From: Acidobacteriota bacterium
GTDB lineage: Bacteria; Acidobacteriota; Vicinamibacteria; Vicinamibacterales; CAVVIG01
Direction: 5' to 3'
DNA length: 64,000 nucleotides
Assembly (NCBI GenBank): GCA_003222395.1
Contig: QHWB01000044.1
Span: forward strand, 124,001-188,000
A program made the position numbers and the translations under genes. Shown in pieces: positions 17,609 through 59,198 of this stretch. How positions within the stretch are numbered: the stretch's first letter is position 1; each line of letters starts with the position of its first letter. The notes beneath the pieces were generated by a model that ran no database searches, was not told where the DNA came from, and saw nothing but the letters and a program-made list of their open reading frames with translations.

Positions 17609-18326
17609 TCTGGGCGCCGCAGCCGTGGCCGAAGTCGAGCGGCTGACGGCCGCACGGACCCTGATGCGCGACGGCGACACGCTCGCGCTGACGCGCCTCG
17701 AGACCGAGGGGCCTTGGATCGGCATCGCTCGATCGAAGCTGAAGAGACGTCTGGGCGGGCGCCGATTGGAGATCTGGCGCGTCGGCTACGAAGACGCGTC
17801 TGGAGGGCTCGTCGAGTCGCGATTGGTCGTGCTCGCGATTCACGAACGCGAGCGCTCGCCTGAAAGGCTCGCGCTACGCGAAAGCCTCGCGCTATCGGAA
17901 AGGCTCGCCGAACCCGTCGCCGAATCTATCGCCACACCTGTAGCGCGAGCCTTTCAGGCGAGCGAAATCCGAGCCTTTCAGGCGAGCGAACTCCGAGCCT
18001 TTCAGGCGAGCGAAATCCAAGCCGTCATCGACTCCGCGATGGTCGAATGGCGCGACGCGGTCGCACGCGCTGTCGCGTCGTTCGCGTCCGCGCGGCTCGC
18101 ACGCGAAACGGCGATCGCCGCGTCGGCGGCGCCGGTGCGCTCAGCGCCGATTCAGACGGGACTCTTCGATCGGCGCGAAGAGCACGCGCATGCGGCCCTC
18201 GAAGAGGGACGTCGTAGCGTCTCGGAGGCACTCGCCGAACGCAAGGCGTCGGCGCAGCGCGCGGCCGCCCTCGTCGCAACCGCGCCCAAGCTCCTGCTGG
18301 TGATTGCCGGTGCTGGCCGGACTTGA
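17598..18326 (+). CDS. Helper protein of the helicase-methylase operon, unknown function
   Basis: 242 residues from the ATG at 17598, which overlaps the helicase stop by 11 bases. The N-terminal part (LGAAAVAEVERLTAARTLM, WIGIARSKLKRRLGGRRLEI) looks like a small alpha/beta domain. The C-terminal part is a helical segment with IQTGLFDRREEHAHAALEEG, a motif also found in C-terminal parts of large RapA-type helicases. It may therefore be a split-off helicase tail. The centre (about residues 85-140) is encoded by the hairpin repeat CGAGCCTTTCAGGCGAGCG and reads as three RAFQASE units, so it was probably not part of the ancestral protein. The 3' end overlaps the methylase start by 23 bases. Confidence 0.65.
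   Translation: MNSDLGAAAVAEVERLTAARTLMRDGDTLALTRLETEGPWIGIARSKLKRRLGGRRLEIWRVGYEDASGGLVESRLVVLAIHERERSPERLALRESLALSERLAEPVAESIATPVARAFQASEIRAFQASELRAFQASEIQAVIDSAMVEWRDAVARAVASFASARLARETAIAASAAPVRSAPIQTGLFDRREEHAHAALEEGRRSVSEALAERKASAQRAAALVATAPKLLLVIAGAGRT
17849..18016. repeat. Hairpin repeat family (GAGCCTTTCAGGC type) inside a coding region
   Basis: Several units (TCGCCTGAAAGGCTCGC, its decayed copies, and three direct copies of CGAGCCTTTCAGGCGAGCG spaced 27 bases) lie in frame within the helper gene. The two orientations face each other, so an inverted pair encloses about 50 bases. The core GCCT-TTC-AGGC is a small hairpin. The same family occurs at 25891-25920, 32868-32889 and, as a compensated variant, at 34021-34335. 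Confidence 0.85.
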
Positions 18327-21300
18327 CGGCTATCTCGTCTCGCACGCCTTTCTCGAACGGCGCGTCGCGATGCCGGCCGATGGACTGGCGGCGGACGCGC
18401 GGCGTCGGAACCTCGCGCAGTGGCGCGCATGGTCGGCCGCGCTCGGTCCGGCCTCGACGACGCGAGCGCTGCTTCAGAACGGAGCCGCGCCGCTCGCCGC
18501 CGCGCTCGGGTTCGATCCGCCCGCCGACATCCGCGAGCTGACTGCGGCGACGAGCGCCACGCTTCGACCGATCGGCAGCGCCGGGAGCGTCGGGTTGATC
18601 GTCGCGCCGTTCGGCGAGCGCCTCGATCCGCTCTGGCGCCCGGCGGTGAGCGAAGCGCTGCGGCGCGGCGCGAGCTGGTGCGTGCTCTTCAACGGCACAC
18701 ATCTCCGCATCGTCGACGCGAGCCGCCTCTATGCTCGCCGATATCTCGAGTTCGACCTCGATCTCGCCGTCGACGGTTCGCACACGCTGGCGGCGCTGTG
18801 GCTGGCCGCCAGTGCCGGCGCATTGTGCGGCGCCGCGGACGCCGGCGAATCGCTGCGCGCCTTGATCGCCGATTCCGACCATCACGCGGCGGCTGTGTGC
18901 CGCTCGCTGCGCGACGGCGTCCTCGCCGCCTCGTCAGGCATTCTCGGAGCGCTGACCGGCGGCGGGCGATCGCGACCCGTCCGGTCGCTCCACGACGGCT
19001 TCGAGCAGTCGCTGACGATCGTGTACCGCATCCTCTTCTTGTTGTTCGCCGAGGCGCGGTCGCTCGTTCCGCTGTGGCACCCGGTGTACCGCGAGAGCTA
19101 CAGCGTCGACGCGCTGCGCACAGCGGCCGCTGCCTCTCCTCACAGCGCCGGATGGTGGGACGCGCTGCGCGCGATGGCGCGCCTCGCTCACGCCGGCTGC
19201 CGCGCCGGAGAACTGCGCGTCACGCCGTTCAACGGCCGGCTCTTCGCGCCCGCACGCACGCCGCTCGCCGAACGGCGCGACCTCGACGACGAGGCGGCAC
19301 GTGGCGCAGTACTGGCGCTGTCGACGCGCCGCGCGCCGGACGGCGCCGGCCGCGAACGCATCTCGTATCGCGACCTCGGCGTCGAGCAGCTCGGCGCCGT
19401 GTACGAAACGCTGCTCGACTATCAGCCGTGCGCCGGACCGTCCGGCGTGACGCTGCAGCGGGGATCCGGCGTCCGCAAGGCGACCGGAACGTTTTATACG
19501 CCGCAGCCGATCGCGGAGTACGTCGTGCGCCGCGCGATCGGACCGCTCGTCCGCGATGCGACGCCCGAACGGATTCTCGGTTTGCGGATCGTCGATCCAG
19601 CAATGGGCAGCGGCGCATTTCTCGTGGCGGCGTGCCGCTACCTCGCATCTGCGTACGAGCAGGCGCTCATCGGCGCGGGACGCTGCCACGCGGCCGATCT
19701 CGGCGAGCGCGAGCGCGTCGCGATCCGGCGGCAAATCGCGGAGCGATGTCTGTACGGCGTCGATCTCAATCCAATGGCAGTGCAGCTCGCGCGCCTGTCC
19801 ATGTGGCTCGCGACGCTCGCCGCCGACCGTCCGCTGAGCTTTCTCGATCACCGCCTGCAGACGGGCGACAGCCTGCTCGGCGCATCGCTCGTACACCTCG
19901 CGCGCGCGCCGCACCGGCGCAAACGGTCGGGGAAATCCGATGCGCTCCCGCTGTTCGACGGCGAAACCGTGGCCGAGGCGCTGCGCGCGGCGCTGCCGGT
20001 GCGCTTCTCTCTGGAGGCGACGCCGAACGACACCATCGAGCAGGTGCGCGAGAAGGAGCGCGCGTACGCGGCGATCACCGCACGCGACGGCTTGCTGTCG
20101 CGCTGGAAGCGAATCGCGAACGTGTGGGCCGCCGCGTGGTTTTCGTCGCCCAATCGACCGGTGCCGGCCGCCGCGTTCGGCGCGCTGGGGGACGTCGTGC
20201 TCTCCGGCCGCGGCGCGCTGCCGCCGCGAACGGCGGAGGCTTATCTCAGCGCGGCGGAAGCGATCGCGTGCGCGCGGCGGTTCTTTCACTGGGAGCTGGA
20301 ATTCCCGGAAGCCTTCTTCGCCGTGGACGGCCGTCCGCTGTCCAACGCCGGGTTCGATGCGGTCATCGGTAATCCACCGTGGGACATGATTCGCGCCGAT
20401 ACCGGCGCAGCCGACGCCCGCGACCGCGCGCGTGTCGACATCGCGCCGCTTTTGCGGTTCACGCGCGACGCCGGGCTCTACTCGGCGCAATCCGACGGGC
20501 ACGCGAACCGGTACCAGCTCTTCGTCGAACGCGCGATCGCGCTCACGCGCGCCGGCGGCCGCATCGGCCTGGTGCTGCCGTCGGGTCTTGCGATCGACCA
20601 TGGCAGCGCGCCACTGCGCAGAATGCTTCTGAATCGATGCGACGTCGACGCGATCGTCGGCTTCGACAACCATCGCGGCGTGTTTCCGATCCACCGCAGT
20701 GTCCGCTTCCTGCTCCTCACCGCGACCGGCGGCGCGCCGACGCGGGCGATCGGCTGTCGTCTCGGCCTCGACGATCCGGCCGATCTCGAATCGGCTGGCG
20801 ACGAGCCGGCCGAGCAGTCGCCGTGGTATCCCGTGCAGGTGACGCCGGAGATGCTCGCGCGCCTGTCCGGACCGGCGCTGACCATTCCGAATCTGCGGAG
20901 CCCGGTGGACGTCGCCATCGCCGAGCGGGCGGCCGCGCTGTTCCCGCCGCTCGGCGATGCGGCCGGATGGAACGCCCGGTTCGGCCGCGAGCTGAACGCC
21001 ACCGACGATCGCGCGTTCTTCCATCCCGCGGACCCACACCGCGCCGATCGGCTGCCCGTTGTCGAGGGAAAACATCTCGATCCGTTTCGCGCGGCCGTCG
21101 GCCGGACCGAGCACGCGATCGCCGCATCGGACGCGCGCCGCCTGCTCGCGTCCGATCGCCACGAGCGCCCGCGCCTCGCGTATCGAGACGTCGCGAGCGC
21201 CACGAATCGCGTGACGCTCATCGCAGCCGTGCTGCCGGCACGGTGCGTGTCGACGCACACGGTCTTCTGTCTGCGCACGCCGCTGCCGGCAGGCGTGCAG

Positions 21301-21627
21301 CACTTCCTGTGCGGCCTCTTCAACAGCCTCGTCGTCAACTATCTCGTGCGGCTGCGCGTCACCACGCACGTGACGACCGCGACCGTCGAGCGACTGCCGA
21401 TTCCAACGTCGGAGATGGCGCCGGCGCGGATCCGGCAGGTCGCCGCGCTCGCGCGCCTGCTGGCCCGCCGCGACGATCCCGCGGCGTTCGCGCGCCTGAA
21501 CGCGCTCGTCGCGGCGCTCTATCAGCTGTCGGCATCAGAGTTCGAGCACGTTCTGGACACGTTTCCGCTGATTTCCACAGAGCTGCGACGGCAGGCGTTG
21601 CAGCTTTTCCAACAAGGCTCGGATTAG
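18304..21627 (+). CDS. Eco57I-like N6-adenine DNA methylase with degenerate N-terminal nuclease-like domain
   Basis: About 1105-1107 residues (TTG at 18304 or GTG at 18310). The methylase core has motif I IVDPAMGSGAFLVAACRY (about residue 430), YGVDLNPMAVQLARLSMWL, and motif IV DAVIGNPPWDMI (about 689). The C-terminal third resembles a target-recognition domain (RLRVTTHVTTATVERLPIPT). The N-terminal 200 residues have the WCVLFNGTHLRIVDASR and YLEFDLDL pattern of type IIG/type I nuclease domains, but I see no E-x-K catalytic pair. It may therefore be non-nucleolytic. Translationally coupled to the helper and helicase, it would mark host DNA while the helicase acts on unmarked DNA. Confidence 0.82.
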   Translation: MPVLAGLDGYLVSHAFLERRVAMPADGLAADARRRNLAQWRAWSAALGPASTTRALLQNGAAPLAAALGFDPPADIRELTAATSATLRPIGSAGSVGLIVAPFGERLDPLWRPAVSEALRRGASWCVLFNGTHLRIVDASRLYARRYLEFDLDLAVDGSHTLAALWLAASAGALCGAADAGESLRALIADSDHHAAAVCRSLRDGVLAASSGILGALTGGGRSRPVRSLHDGFEQSLTIVYRILFLLFAEARSLVPLWHPVYRESYSVDALRTAAAASPHSAGWWDALRAMARLAHAGCRAGELRVTPFNGRLFAPARTPLAERRDLDDEAARGAVLALSTRRAPDGAGRERISYRDLGVEQLGAVYETLLDYQPCAGPSGVTLQRGSGVRKATGTFYTPQPIAEYVVRRAIGPLVRDATPERILGLRIVDPAMGSGAFLVAACRYLASAYEQALIGAGRCHAADLGERERVAIRRQIAERCLYGVDLNPMAVQLARLSMWLATLAADRPLSFLDHRLQTGDSLLGASLVHLARAPHRRKRSGKSDALPLFDGETVAEALRAALPVRFSLEATPNDTIEQVREKERAYAAITARDGLLSRWKRIANVWAAAWFSSPNRPVPAAAFGALGDVVLSGRGALPPRTAEAYLSAAEAIACARRFFHWELEFPEAFFAVDGRPLSNAGFDAVIGNPPWDMIRADTGAADARDRARVDIAPLLRFTRDAGLYSAQSDGHANRYQLFVERAIALTRAGGRIGLVLPSGLAIDHGSAPLRRMLLNRCDVDAIVGFDNHRGVFPIHRSVRFLLLTATGGAPTRAIGCRLGLDDPADLESAGDEPAEQSPWYPVQVTPEMLARLSGPALTIPNLRSPVDVAIAERAAALFPPLGDAAGWNARFGRELNATDDRAFFHPADPHRADRLPVVEGKHLDPFRAAVGRTEHAIAASDARRLLASDRHERPRLAYRDVASATNRVTLIAAVLPARCVSTHTVFCLRTPLPAGVQHFLCGLFNSLVVNYLVRLRVTTHVTTATVERLPIPTSEMAPARIRQVAALARLLARRDDPAAFARLNALVAALYQLSASEFEHVLDTFPLISTELRRQALQLFQQGSD

Positions 21628-21642
21628 AGCACCGGAACAAGC

Positions 21643-22047
21643 ATGGACAAACCACAGAGACTCGGAGGCTCAGAGCTACGGGATATCAATTCGATGACGG
21701 ACGAGATCATCGGCGCCGCAATCGAAGTCCATCGCGCTCTCGGGCCAGGATTGCTCGAGTCAATCTACGAGACCGCGCTCTGCATTGAATTGCAGGACCG
21801 AGGATTGAAGTACGCGCGTCAGGTCTGTGTGTCCGCTCGCTACAAAGGACAAACCGTTGGAGAGTACCGAGTCGACTTGATCGTCGAGGATCGCGTCGTG
21901 GTCGAAGTGAAATGCGTGGCAAACATTACTCCAGTATTCGAGGCTCAGTTAATGGCGTACCTTCGACTGACCGGAAAGCGTGTCGGTCTGCTCATCAACT
22001 TCAACGCGCGACTAATCAAGGACGATTTGCGGAGAAAAATCATTTGA
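21643..22047 (+). CDS. GxxExxY family protein
   Basis: 134 residues. The family signature is plain in IIGAAIEVHRALGPGLLESI followed by YETALCIELQDRGL, then a PD-(D/E)XK-like core with RVDLIVEDRVVVEVKCVANI. The biochemical role of GxxExxY proteins is not established; the core suggests nucleic-acid binding or cleavage. The N-terminal ~17 residues (from the ATG at 21643) are encoded by a repeat unit; an internal ATG at 21694 would give a shorter product. The gene lies between inverted copies of an ACCACAGAGACACGGAG-type repeat and is followed by a large palindrome. Its AT content is higher than that of the neighbours, which suggests transfer. Confidence 0.88.
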   Translation: MDKPQRLGGSELRDINSMTDEIIGAAIEVHRALGPGLLESIYETALCIELQDRGLKYARQVCVSARYKGQTVGEYRVDLIVEDRVVVEVKCVANITPVFEAQLMAYLRLTGKRVGLLINFNARLIKDDLRRKII

Positions 22048-22241
22048 GCACAAGGCGTCGCACGACGCCGCGAAGCGGCGGGCAGTGAGAAAGAAGGCCG
22101 CGGAAACATGAAACACACGGATCAGAGTTTCATGTTTCCGCGGCCTTCTTTCTCACTGCGCCCGACCGGCTACGCCGGTCGGTCGTGCGACGCCTCGGAC
22201 CCTGTCAATGTCTCTGTGTTCTCCGTGTCTCTGTGGTTCTA
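21648..22241. mobile_element. Putative GxxExxY cassette bounded by inverted repeats
   Basis: Left end ACCACAGAGACTCGGAGG (around 21653-21670) matches, in inverse orientation, the right end around 22215-22237 (read on the minus strand, ACCACAGAGACACGGAGA). Between them lie the GxxExxY gene and the cloverleaf-like palindrome 22053-22195. No transposase or integrase is present. The mobility claim is inferred from the architecture and from the analogous four-helix-bundle cassette at 58595-59191. Confidence 0.5.
22053..22195. repeat. 143-bp multi-arm palindrome (cloverleaf/cruciform-like)
   Basis: The outer arms (14 bp, AGGCGTCGCACGAC at 22053-22066 and complement at 22182-22195) enclose three hairpins. 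The first is GCCGC-GAA-GCGGC (22067-22079). The second is a perfect 33-bp stem with a 12-base loop (22082-22114 / 22127-22159). The third is CGACCGGC-TAC-GCCGGTCG (22163-22181). The result is a four-way junction. No T-tract follows, so a simple terminator is unlikely. It starts 6 bases after the GxxExxY stop. Confidence 0.9.
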
Positions 22242-22547
22242 AATCTTGCGGTGAAACACGAGCGCGGCGACTGCTCCGATCACGAGCTCCAGCAGCACGA
22301 TCGAGGTGAGCACGGCGAACGGCCAGTCGCGCTCGAGGATGTACTCGATCGTCGACAGGACGACGCGCGCCGCGGGCGTCGCGATCAGGAAGAGGATGCC
22401 GATGTTCAACAGCCTCGCGCCCGCGCCGGGCTCCGGCCACGCGAGCGACAGCGGCAGCCCGATCGCCAGGCATACGATGCTCGTCACGACGCCGGTGCGC
22501 AACACGCGGCCGATGAGGATCTCGAATCTCGTGTCGCTGGATTTCAC
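22239..22547 (-). CDS. DUF1634 family membrane protein
   Basis: 102 residues from the GTG at 22547, which overlaps the TSUP stop in a GTGA. Three hydrophobic segments are visible: IGRVLRTGVVTSIVCLAIGL, LLNIGILFLIATPAARVVLS and FAVLTSIVLLELVIGAVAAL. DUF1634 proteins regularly sit directly after TauE/SafE-type exporters and are taken to be partner subunits. The C-terminus (ALVFHRKI) ends at the repeat that closes the GxxExxY cassette. Confidence 0.85.
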   Translation of the reverse strand: MKSSDTRFEILIGRVLRTGVVTSIVCLAIGLPLSLAWPEPGAGARLLNIGILFLIATPAARVVLSTIEYILERDWPFAVLTSIVLLELVIGAVAALVFHRKI

Positions 22548-23377
22548 CGTCCACCTCGCGTCAGCATCAGCAACGAGATGCTTCCGAGCACAGCCGCGAG
22601 CAGCAGCTTGAGAACCCGTACCGGGATGTTCGGCGACGCGCGCAGGCCGAGCCACGATCCCGCCTGCACGCCGAGGATCGCGGCGGCCGCCGCGACCGGC
22701 TGCAGTTGTCCGTTGCCGTAATAGATGATGGCGCCGCCCGTCGCCGTGACGCCGATCATGAACGCGCTCGTCGCCGCCGCGGCGCGAAGCGGCATGCCGC
22801 ACCACGCGTTCAGCACCGGCACCTTCATGAAGCCGCCGCCGATGCCGAGCAGCGACGACACGTTCCCCGCGATGAACGAAACGACGACGGCGAGCGGCAG
22901 CCGCCTGATCCGGTAGACGACCGTCGCGCCCGTTTCGGCGTCGAAGAAACGACCGCCGAGCCGTCCCGGATCGACGCGTGGGTCGGTGATCACGTTGCGC
23001 TGCGTCGACCGCGCGATCGTGACGACCGCCACCGCGCCCGTCACGAACGCGAACAGGCGCTGCAGCGTCGTCTGCGCGACGAGCTGTGCGGTGATGCCTC
23101 CGAGCACGCTGCCGGCGGCCGTCGCGACCTCGAGCAGCATGCCGAAGCGGAAGTTCATCAGGTTCATGCCCGCTCTGCCGGCGGTGACGCTGCTCGACGT
23201 GGCGATGACGGTGGTGAGGCTGATCGCCGCCGCCATCGCGATCGGAAATCCAAGGCCGAGATTGAGGAACGGGACGAGAAAGATGCCGCCGCCGAGCCCG
23301 AGCAGCGCGCCCGTGCTCCCGGCGACGGCGCCGGCGGCGAAGATGATCAGCGCAAGGGTTGGAGTAACGGCCGGCAT
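22544..23377 (-). CDS. Sulfite exporter TauE/SafE (TSUP) family permease
   Basis: 277 residues with about eight membrane helices. The duplicated TSUP motif is visible in both halves: GSTGALLGLGGGIFLVPFL and NVSSLLGIGGGFMKVPVLN. TSUP proteins export sulfite or organosulfonates or take up related anions; the substrate is not predictable here. The start MPAVTPTLALIIF at 23377 was chosen because the upstream frame is repeat DNA and has no membrane-protein character. A rhodanese gene lies upstream on the same strand, which agrees with sulfur metabolism. Confidence 0.9.
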   Translation of the reverse strand: MPAVTPTLALIIFAAGAVAGSTGALLGLGGGIFLVPFLNLGLGFPIAMAAAISLTTVIATSSSVTAGRAGMNLMNFRFGMLLEVATAAGSVLGGITAQLVAQTTLQRLFAFVTGAVAVVTIARSTQRNVITDPRVDPGRLGGRFFDAETGATVVYRIRRLPLAVVVSFIAGNVSSLLGIGGGFMKVPVLNAWCGMPLRAAAATSAFMIGVTATGGAIIYYGNGQLQPVAAAAAILGVQAGSWLGLRASPNIPVRVLKLLLAAVLGSISLLMLTRGGR

Positions 23378-23379
23378 CG

Positions 23380-23476
23380 AAAAGTTCGAAGTCAGAAGTT
23401 CGAAGTCAGAAGTACGAAGTACGAAGTACTGCAGTACTTCGGTACTTCGTACTTCAAACTTCAAACTTCGAACTTG
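23380..23476. repeat. TTCGAAGT-type head-to-head inverted repeat pair
   Basis: Direct units (gttcgaagtcagaa, gtacgaagtacgaa) run into their inverse complement, meeting at the perfect palindrome GTACTGCAGTAC near 23428-23439. The right arm overlaps the last codons of the small gene 23461-23682, which therefore ends RKFEV. Confidence 0.85.
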
Positions 23477-57010: not shown

Positions 57011-58598
57011 CGACCAGGCGTCGCCACGAACCGCGACGGCGACGATTCGCGGTCACGTCACGGCCGCCGACACGGGACAGCCGATTCGCAGAGCGCAGGT
57101 GCGCCTCACACAGATATATCCACCGTTCACTCCGTTAAGCATCGTTGGTCGAGCGGTCATGACGGATGCCGACGGCGCTTACGAATTCACGGCGCTGCCG
57201 GCCGGCCGCTACAACCTGTTCATCTCGAAGGCCGGTTATGTCGGCGCGCCGTGGGGACAGCAGCGTACCGGCGAAGGCGGAGAGCCGATCGACGCCGCCG
57301 CCGGCCAGACGATCGATCACGTCGACTTCGCGCTGCAGCGCGGCGGCGTTATCACCGGCCGCATCTTCGACGAGTTCGGCGAGCCGTTGTCCGGGATTCA
57401 AGTGTCGGTCATGCGCAATCAGCCGATGAACGGTCAGCGTCAGCTGATGGCGATGTCGAGCGAGCAGACCAACGATCTCGGCGAGTTCCGGATCTACGGC
57501 CTCGCGCCCGGTCAGTACTACGTGCAGGCGGCGTGGAGGAGGTTCGGGCCGGGCGATCCGACATCGCCGGACCGCACCGGCTATCCGCCGACGTTGTTTC
57601 CTGGAACGACCGACGCGGGCGCCGCTCAGCGATTCACGATCGGTGCGGGGCAGACGATCGGCGATCTCGTGATGGCGCTGTCACCGATCAAGGCCGTGCG
57701 AGTCGAAGGCACCGCGATCGATTCGAACGGACGGCCGCTCGCCAACGCGCTTCTGACGATCTCGCAGGAAACGAGCACGTCCGGCTACTCGTCGGGACAG
57801 AGCGTCAGCCCCGAGGGCAAATTCACGCTGACGAACGTCACGCCCGGCGAGTACACCCTGCGTGTCCAGACGAACGACGATCGAAAACAGGTCGCGACGA
57901 TGAAGCTGGCCGTCGGGGCGGAAGACATCAGGGACGTTCGGCTCGTTGCCTCGCCGCCGTCGACGATCTCCGGACGCATCGTGATCGATCCGGCGCAGGC
58001 AGCGTCGATGCCGGTCACCACGTTTTCGGTGAGCACATACTCCGTCGACCCACCGGTGACGGTCTATATCAGCGCGCCGCCCGTGAGGGTCGCCGAGGAT
58101 CTGACGTTCGAGCTGACGCCTCCTTCAATCGGACGACACGCCATCAGTGTCATCAACCTCCCGACCGGCTGGTCGGTCCGCAGCCTGCGCGTCAACAACA
58201 TCGATGTCACCGACGAGGGCATCGAGCTGAAGCCGAACGAGCGCATCTCCGGCGTCGAAGTCGAGCTGACAAATAAAGCGACGACGATCTCCGGAATCGT
58301 GAAGGACGGCAGAGGCGGACCGGCGAAAGAGTGCTGGACGCTCGTCTTTCCGGTAGACAGCAAACGCTGGAAGCCGAACTCACGATACATGAGAGCCTGG
58401 CGTGCGGCTGAGGACGGCCGATTCAGAGCCGCTGGGCTGCCGCCGAGCGATTACTACATCATCGCGCTCGACAAAATGGAGCCTGGTCAGAACAACGATC
58501 CGGAGTTCCTCGAGCGCATCCGCCCGAGAGCGACGAGCTTCTCGCTGGTCGAGGGCGAGACGAAGACGCTGGAGTTGAAGGTGAACATGGTCTTCTGA
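56949..58598 (+). CDS. Secreted carboxypeptidase-regulatory-like domain protein (paralogue 3)
   Basis: 549 residues. A short leader (MIAIAAATLTLLAAQPFRAA) partly encoded by a repeat; cleavage likely near ADQA. Modules match the two upstream genes: ATIRGHVTAADTGQPIRRAQ, MTDADGAYEFTALPAGRYNL, GVITGRIFDEFGEPLSGIQV, GYPPTLFPGTTDAGAAQRFT, VEGTAIDSNGRPLANALLTI. The C-terminus has SLVEGETKTLELKVNMVF. The stop TGA (58596-58598) is the first codon of a heptad repeat arm. Lower GC in codons 30-40 (CAGATATATCC) suggests recent change. Confidence 0.85.
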   Translation: MIAIAAATLTLLAAQPFRAAADQASPRTATATIRGHVTAADTGQPIRRAQVRLTQIYPPFTPLSIVGRAVMTDADGAYEFTALPAGRYNLFISKAGYVGAPWGQQRTGEGGEPIDAAAGQTIDHVDFALQRGGVITGRIFDEFGEPLSGIQVSVMRNQPMNGQRQLMAMSSEQTNDLGEFRIYGLAPGQYYVQAAWRRFGPGDPTSPDRTGYPPTLFPGTTDAGAAQRFTIGAGQTIGDLVMALSPIKAVRVEGTAIDSNGRPLANALLTISQETSTSGYSSGQSVSPEGKFTLTNVTPGEYTLRVQTNDDRKQVATMKLAVGAEDIRDVRLVASPPSTISGRIVIDPAQAASMPVTTFSVSTYSVDPPVTVYISAPPVRVAEDLTFELTPPSIGRHAISVINLPTGWSVRSLRVNNIDVTDEGIELKPNERISGVEVELTNKATTISGIVKDGRGGPAKECWTLVFPVDSKRWKPNSRYMRAWRAAEDGRFRAAGLPPSDYYIIALDKMEPGQNNDPEFLERIRPRATSFSLVEGETKTLELKVNMVF

Positions 58599-58672
58599 GA
58601 TTGCTGATTTCAGATTGCTGATTGCTGATTGATTGCTGATTGATTGCTGATTGATTGCTGATTGATTTATTG
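58595..58672. repeat. Left heptad arm (GATTGCTGATT units)
   Basis: About ten GATTGCT/GATT units starting in the stop codon of paralogue 3 and ending in the stop codon of the four-helix-bundle gene. Confidence 0.93.
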
Positions 58673-59071
58673 CCGCGGGTGACGCCGGGCATGTGGATCC
58701 GGATCGCCGCGTTTTAGTGCTTCGCTCGCTGTGATGCTGGATGCGGCGAGTATCGCGCATAACTGGTCGGCTTCGTCCAACAGCTCCGCGCACCGGGGAC
58801 TTTTCGACAGGGCGCCCTCACCGATAATCTCGAGCCAAAACGCTGACTCGTCCGCTTCCTCGAGTGCGATGTTGATTCGTGCGATGAATTCCGCGCGCGA
58901 CCGAGATCTGCGCGTCGCACGGTAATTGGCCCCCACACCGGTTCCAGAGCGCCGTAATTGATCGCCGATGTCGCGACATTCATCGGTATTCGCCAACGTC
59001 CTCACGAATCCCAGAAAATCGAGAGCGAACTTCTTCGTTCGCGCCTTCAGCACCTCTTTGTCGAATTCCAT
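58667..59071 (-). CDS. Four-helix-bundle protein (S23/IVP, bAvd-like)
   Basis: 134 residues from the ATG at 59071 (alternatives at 59083 and 59137). The family pattern is clear: VLKARTKKFALDFLGFVRTL, DIGDQLRRSGTGVGANYRAT, SRAEFIARINIALEEADESA, FWLEIIGEGAL. Relatives occur in intervening sequences of 23S rRNA genes, and the structurally similar bAvd protein assists diversity-generating reverse transcriptases by binding RNA. Here there is neither rRNA nor reverse transcriptase. The basic, Arg-rich surface suggests RNA binding. The gene lies wholly between inverted heptad arms and is antisense to its neighbour upstream. Confidence 0.9.
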   Translation of the reverse strand: MEFDKEVLKARTKKFALDFLGFVRTLANTDECRDIGDQLRRSGTGVGANYRATRRSRSRAEFIARINIALEEADESAFWLEIIGEGALSKSPRCAELLDEADQLCAILAASSITASEALKRGDPDPHARRHPRQ

Positions 59072-59139
59072 GGAATGGCGCATTTGCAGAATGCGCGCCG
59101 CGTCGATATCGCGCGCGCAAGTCGGTTCAACCGCCATTG

Positions 59140-59191
59140 AATCCAATCAACAATCAATCAGGAATCTGAAATCTGCAATCAGCAATCTCAG
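59140..59191. repeat. Right heptad arm, inverted
   Basis: AATCAACAATCAATCAGGAA, AATCTGAAATCTGCAATC and AATCAGCAATCTCAG are inverse complements of the left-arm units. It ends 8 bases before the stop of the acetyltransferase gene. Confidence 0.93.
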
Positions 59192-59198
59192 AACCCTG

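Follow-up and report, generated by a model that had tools for sequence, protein, structure and literature searches.

The window (the whole 64-kb stretch of DNA analyzed here) contains a gene of the GxxExxY family that lies between the genes for an Eco57I/MmeI-like DNA methylase and a DUF1634 protein and is enclosed by two facing arms of short tandem units (Table 1). The left core arm, AACCACAGAGACTCGGAG (21650-21667), recurs in inverted form as CTCCGTGTCTCTGTGGTT at 22221-22238, with 17 of 18 positions identical. With up to 3 mismatches allowed, ACCACAGAGACACGGAG occurs at two sites only in the 64 kb, against an expectation of 0.13, and none of 100 shuffled windows gave two hits. The outer ends of the cassette, 21650 and 22238, lie exactly between the stop codons of the two neighbors, and since the cassette starts 22 nt past the methylase stop and ends one base before that of the DUF1634 gene, neither neighbor is interrupted. 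The cassette has a GC content of 0.56 vs. 0.66 for the window. The original prediction of a GxxExxY gene flanked by facing arms is borne out by these arms and by a match of the product to TIGR04256, and the block that it placed at 21648-22241 stands as a cassette, with its limits corrected to the above ends. The interval between the gene and the right arm holds a nested palindrome, whose perfect 33-bp stem is GCAGTGAGAAAGAAGGCCGCGGAAACATGAAAC and of which no second full copy was found elsewhere in the genome.

Table 1 Features of the GxxExxY locus and of a four-helix-bundle cassette in the 64-kb window
Feature	Positions	Strand	Remarks
Upstream neighbor, Eco57I/MmeI-like DNA methylase	18304-21627	+	stop codon 22 nt ahead of left arm
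GxxExxY gene (predicted PD-(D/E)XK nuclease, PDDEXK_3)	21643-22047	+	134 aa; family domain from internal ATG 21694
Left terminal arm	21650-21675	+	three 8-nt units, CCACAGAG-ACTCGGAG-GCTCAGAG, the third weaker
Nested palindrome, gene-to-right-arm interval	22053-22195	.	14-bp outer arms, GC-rich hairpins, perfect 33-bp inner arms
Right terminal arm	22212-22238	-	inverted; minus strand reads AACCACAGAGACACGGAGAACACAGAG; third unit weaker
Downstream neighbor, DUF1634 protein	22239-22805	-	convergent; stop codon directly abuts right arm
Four-helix-bundle gene (TIGR02436) cassette	58593-59193	-	domain 58739-59044; facing GATTGCT arrays 58593-58642 and 59144-59193

The gene product and its start codon

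The product of the gene matched TIGR04256 (E=3.8e-43, 146.5 bits against a cut-off of 35) and PF13366 (PDDEXK_3; E=1.5e-42, 145.1 bits against a cut-off of 22). The PD-(D/E)XK residues (E, D, E-x-K) and the RecB-type Q are all present, as E39, D78, E88, K90 and Q102, and are conserved in at least 106 of 108 proteins. An AlphaFold2 model (29 family members) has a pLDDT of 93; in a Foldseek search with it, lambda-type exonucleases and Cas4 SSO0001 scored best, with E about 2e-3. VIA-align of the model gave Z=10.0 over 98 residues for Cas4 SSO0001 and Z=7.1 for Hjc, where values below 8 are not distinctive. A PDB sequence search with the family profile returned no match up to E=1, and PADLOC gave a weak match to Cas4 (E=0.0099). 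The conserved catalytic residues together with the Cas4-like predicted fold suggest that the nuclease site is intact, and the GxxExxY protein is likely to be a Cas4/RecB-like PD-(D/E)XK nuclease.

It had also been proposed that the N-terminal codons derive from the left arm. This applies only if translation starts at ATG 21643 and is doubtful, as the domain begins at codon 18, the in-frame ATG 21694. Since this ATG sits where the domain begins, arm-derived N-terminal codons are probably a matter of start-codon choice. Among 75 framed homologues, 56 have an in-frame start codon behind the last arm unit and before the domain, mostly within 15 nt. At loci where both neighbors could be called, both are co-directional in 32 cases and both opposite in 2 (p=7e-8). 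These data suggest that GxxExxY is expressed by read-through from a host operon, and the purine-rich arm could act as a Shine-Dalgarno sequence.

Arms at GxxExxY loci and at four-helix-bundle loci

A cross-phylum set of 80 GxxExxY loci was collected from genome contigs with one consensus query. The set covers about 20 phyla overall, and the 67 loci carried into a tree represent 18 named phyla, an archaeon included. Left and right arms share one consensus, TTCACCACAGAGACACAGAG. Anchored on the first unit it reads TTcACCaCAGAGaCaCaGAG, identically left and right, and no conservation beyond it was found in this alignment. An inverted arm-to-arm match with a score of at least 16 was present at 59 of 74 testable loci compared with 1 of 231 shifted controls. 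The same score was much rarer in direct orientation (19/74), and 42 of 222 mismatched locus pairs reached it; the direct matches arise in part because complete hairpins adjoin some genes, and the mismatched pairs lie above zero because the arm sequence is identical in different phyla. The inverted arrangement thus prevails over direct flanks or none at all, and facing arms are a standing trait of GxxExxY loci in relatives, as had been proposed.

By motif, both arms point inward at 57 of 79 cross-phylum loci and 23 of 59 Acidobacteria loci, as opposed to 0 of 116 shifted controls. Other Acidobacteria loci have arm variants such as CACAGATT, AACGGAG or CACGAAA. Many GxxExxY genes of genus g24 carry the CACAGATT arm, not CACAGAG (L186, L187, L193 and L194), and at locus L060 the arms consist of a TCAAGAG-type unit that is also repeated nearby in direct orientation. 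When upstream flanks were compared with reverse-complemented downstream flanks in genomes of the same family, a strong inverted match was seen at nearly every testable locus, and direct-orientation matches were mainly background. The median length of 75 elements is 455 bp (414-697). Flank matches at 75 loci are at the level of shuffled pairs, and target-site duplications were not found. The facing-arm frame is a general property of GxxExxY genes and no local accident. Simple tandem repeats may arise by chance or expand by slippage beside unrelated genes, and the units are indeed short and tandem, but their facing position on both sides, a motif identical across phyla and controls near zero refute such an origin, to which we assign a negligible probability.

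Loci with more similar proteins have more similar arms (Mantel r=0.39 in Acidobacteria and 0.18 across phyla, p=0.002 each, kinship ignored). At equal protein identity, arms within one genome resemble each other no more than arms of different genomes do, and therefore arms are not homogenized by the host. Arm variants track the protein and not the host genome, a pattern that would also result if the whole unit had descended from a common ancestor.

The original prediction saw one cassette principle with two unrelated cargo genes, the second encoding a four-helix-bundle protein (TIGR02436). Such genes from the same family do lie between facing tandem arrays, at 22 of 28 testable loci vs. 0 of 56 shifted controls, but the cassette is not the same. 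Whereas GxxExxY arms are one cross-phylum sequence, the six four-helix-bundle genes of the source genome have six arrays (TCAGCTG, GGGCGGGA, GGGCAGA, GATTGCT, GGGTAATT and GGGATTT), with units of 7-9 nt that vary from copy to copy, and the GxxExxY motif with both arms inward was found at 1 of 28 four-helix-bundle loci. The plan of the two frames is common, the arm specificity is not. At 23380-23470 the window also has a gene-free heptamer array (GAAGTTC/GAAGTAC) that inverts at CTGCAG and forms a frame like those of the four-helix-bundle genes.

The protein encoded in intervening sequences (IVS) of 23S rRNA is TIGR02436; these sequences are short elements with inverted ends whose mobility has long been suspected (PMC4990558). 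With the IVS and its S23p protein the GxxExxY cassette shares a size of 400-500 nt, inverted ends, one small ORF, a sporadic occurrence and a proposed horizontal spread (PMC4990558). In contrast to the IVS, it lies outside rRNA, between the Eco57I-like methylase and DUF1634 genes, its ORF is a PDDEXK_3 protein instead of the S23p four-helix bundle, and its arms are conserved in sequence with no sign of RNA-level constraint between them. An alternative explanation is that, like the IVS, the element acts as RNA, forming a stem-loop whose ends would be processed by RNase III so that the host transcript is spared, with a separate role for the nuclease. The inverted ends are able to pair, the element is placed co-directionally with host genes, the whole element folds with z=-10.3 relative to shuffles (largely owing to its private inner palindrome), and the four-helix-bundle protein of the parallel frames is a known IVS protein (PMC4990558). 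However, the differences between the arms are not biased toward G-U (at 79 loci, 87 are wobble-compatible and 97 are not), so that RNA pairing is rejected as the force keeping arms alike, and the conservation of their primary sequence across phyla exceeds what pairing alone needs. We consider this explanation improbable.

Gene-less arm elements and signs of mobility

In the source assembly (7.7 Mb, 118 contigs), a single GxxExxY gene was found but 81 sites near CACAGAGACACGGAG, mostly arranged as gene-free facing pairs with a spacing of 70-240 bp. Parsing of the gene-less elements yielded 12 inward-facing pairs, the one outward-facing case being a weak and unrelated match. Some share internal sequence (L017 and L020, 77% over 157 nt; L020 and L022, 82% over 113 nt), which makes these gene-less elements copies of each other; with the gene cassette they have the arms alone in common. 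Gene-less elements elsewhere contain different nested palindromes, arranged like Russian dolls, as if inserted in the loops of older palindromes. In Gemmatirosa, a GxxExxY gene is flanked by two complete gene-less arm hairpins.

Of the 119 class genomes examined, 29 of 47 with the gene but 8 of 72 without it contain 8 or more arm sites (Fisher p=7e-9, kinship ignored); a reversed-pattern control for these counts is not independent, as it matches the same tandem arrays. Arm-rich genomes without the gene include G083 (51 sites) and G054 (34), and gene-bearing genomes with few matches to the arm pattern used are G048, G081 and G082. With the arm types of genes assigned by eye and kinship ignored, CACAGAG sites are concentrated in those genomes of the family whose gene has a CACAGAG arm (p=1e-4), and CACGAAG sites are more numerous where the gene has a CACGAAG arm (p=0.008). 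Exceptions are G015, G017 and G018, with many CACGAAG sites and no gene of that arm type recovered from assemblies that are 79-87% complete. The dispersed gene-less sites are mostly of the arm type of the resident gene. In one contig region (G001:C53:2785-10897), CACGAAG pairs form a long series on one strand at a spacing near 29 nt; elsewhere the pairs face each other.

A RAYT/IS200-type (Y1, HUH) transposase might instead move the gene-less elements, with the GxxExxY gene as a passenger. Y1_Tnp genes occur in 79 of the 119 genomes, that of the window among them, but had no effect on arm number either with or without GxxExxY (p=0.54 and 0.20; 119 genomes), whereas the effect of GxxExxY persisted in both Y1 strata (p=5e-5 and 0.002). 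In genome G001, 151 arm sites were counted but no hit to Y1_Tnp. Transposition by such enzymes is thus a very unlikely source of the hairpins.

The GxxExxY gene is present in 21 of 27 genomes of the same family and 47 of 119 of the class, in up to 8 copies per genome, and fragments and stop-containing copies exist. In the protein tree, where few branches are well supported, the six Verrucomicrobiota rows all stand apart and the 18 phylum labels require 30 changes vs. a minimum of 17. GxxExxY genes were also seen on contigs of archaeal bins, Altarchaeum and Methanothrix (L122 and L083, the latter armless), where binning errors are possible. Spread by phages or plasmids was rejected, as the gene was absent from all 50,697 phage records and was found in 8 of the 72,556 for plasmids, of which eight a number are chromosome-sized replicons.

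A test for sites lacking the whole block had been suggested, and one such site was found, by comparison of two Sphingomonas species only. In S. parapaucimobilis the unit sits between fabD and fabG, which in S. paeninsulae are about 30 nt apart; this comparison between species shows an insertion, undated. A copy in Bacteroides finegoldii lies between radA and the gene for a FAD protein and has the same arms. Prevotella nigrescens was ruled out as an empty-site source, being a relative without the entire region.

The arms could alternatively be sites of autoregulation or termination, the gene-less copies being regulatory or REP-like sequences used by the host and the nuclease a host or defense protein that does not mobilize them. 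The location of the arms at the start and stop codon, the start codon that usually comes right after the final arm unit, and the low-scoring hit to Cas4 in PADLOC would fit such a role. However, arm type goes with the protein and not with the genome, the gene is sporadic and decaying, and, unlike most defense genes, it is missing from the above phage records and nearly so from the plasmid records. We regard a purely regulatory function of the arms as unlikely.

A candidate selfish element

The repeat frame around the gene in about 20 phyla, together with gene-less frames in gene-bearing genomes, points to a likely, previously undescribed tiny selfish element. The explanation that we favor, with somewhat better than even confidence, is a minimal selfish element in which facing tandem-repeat arms surround one RecB/Cas4-like nuclease gene and which operates in a REP/RAYT-like manner. 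The element consists of two facing arms, each of two or three tandem units of 8-9 nt, enclosing the single nuclease gene. From this anatomy we infer mobilization by the nuclease, which would recognize its own arms, be they in duplex, cruciform or single-stranded hairpin form, and would cut at the arms or at the target. Host repair or replication would then copy the unit into new intergenic sites, and gene-less copies would be mobilized in trans.

REPINs, which are dispersed inverted doublets, owe their spread to a nuclease encoded beside its cognate repeats (PMC3116915, PMC8266576). As in REP/RAYT systems, a nuclease gene is found with its own short palindromic repeats (PMC3116915, PMC8266576), and gene-less inverted hairpin doublets are dispersed whose repeat type matches the resident nuclease. 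In contrast to RAYTs, which are Y1 HUH transposases, the GxxExxY enzyme is a predicted PD-(D/E)XK nuclease and lacks the defining HUH character; its arms are tandem 8-9-mers, and its gene is multi-copy and sporadic, whereas RAYTs are single-copy and housekeeping-like. By analogy, REP/RAYT is the closest working model of the GxxExxY element, which we do not class as a RAYT. Terminal inverted repeats and dispersed gene-less copies are also found in IS elements and MITEs, but the GxxExxY element has no transposase of a known class (its single ORF is PDDEXK_3) and no target-site duplication. Heptamer repeats have been reported, with no framed gene, as GGGNATC in Xanthomonas and Nostoc (PMC4692102) and TAACTGA in Beggiatoaceae (PMC4679880). 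These are likewise short tandem intergenic units, and one four-helix-bundle frame here has GGGATTT, but the GxxExxY arm is another, fixed motif. In the open-licence literature, we found no link of GxxExxY or PF13366 to flanking repeats.

A broader proposal, for which we see slightly less than an even chance, is that the cassettes form a new class of autonomous mobile elements of about 430 bp, whose sole protein, a RecB/Cas4-like nuclease, recognizes the mirrored tandem-repeat ends of its own element; this class would spread across bacterial phyla and archaea and drive the gene-less hairpins, the four-helix-bundle/IVS frames being a parallel second class with facing arrays of like plan.

GxxExxY proteins are annotated without function in many genomes, and the CACAGAG/CACGAAG-type repeats around their genes yield many spurious N-terminal extensions and hypothetical proteins. 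If nuclease and repeats are one system, both would be explained as a selfish element built on a Cas4/RecB-type nuclease and not on a transposase. It would provide a new protein-DNA recognition pair and a link to the old question on the nature of 23S rRNA intervening sequences and the S23 protein.
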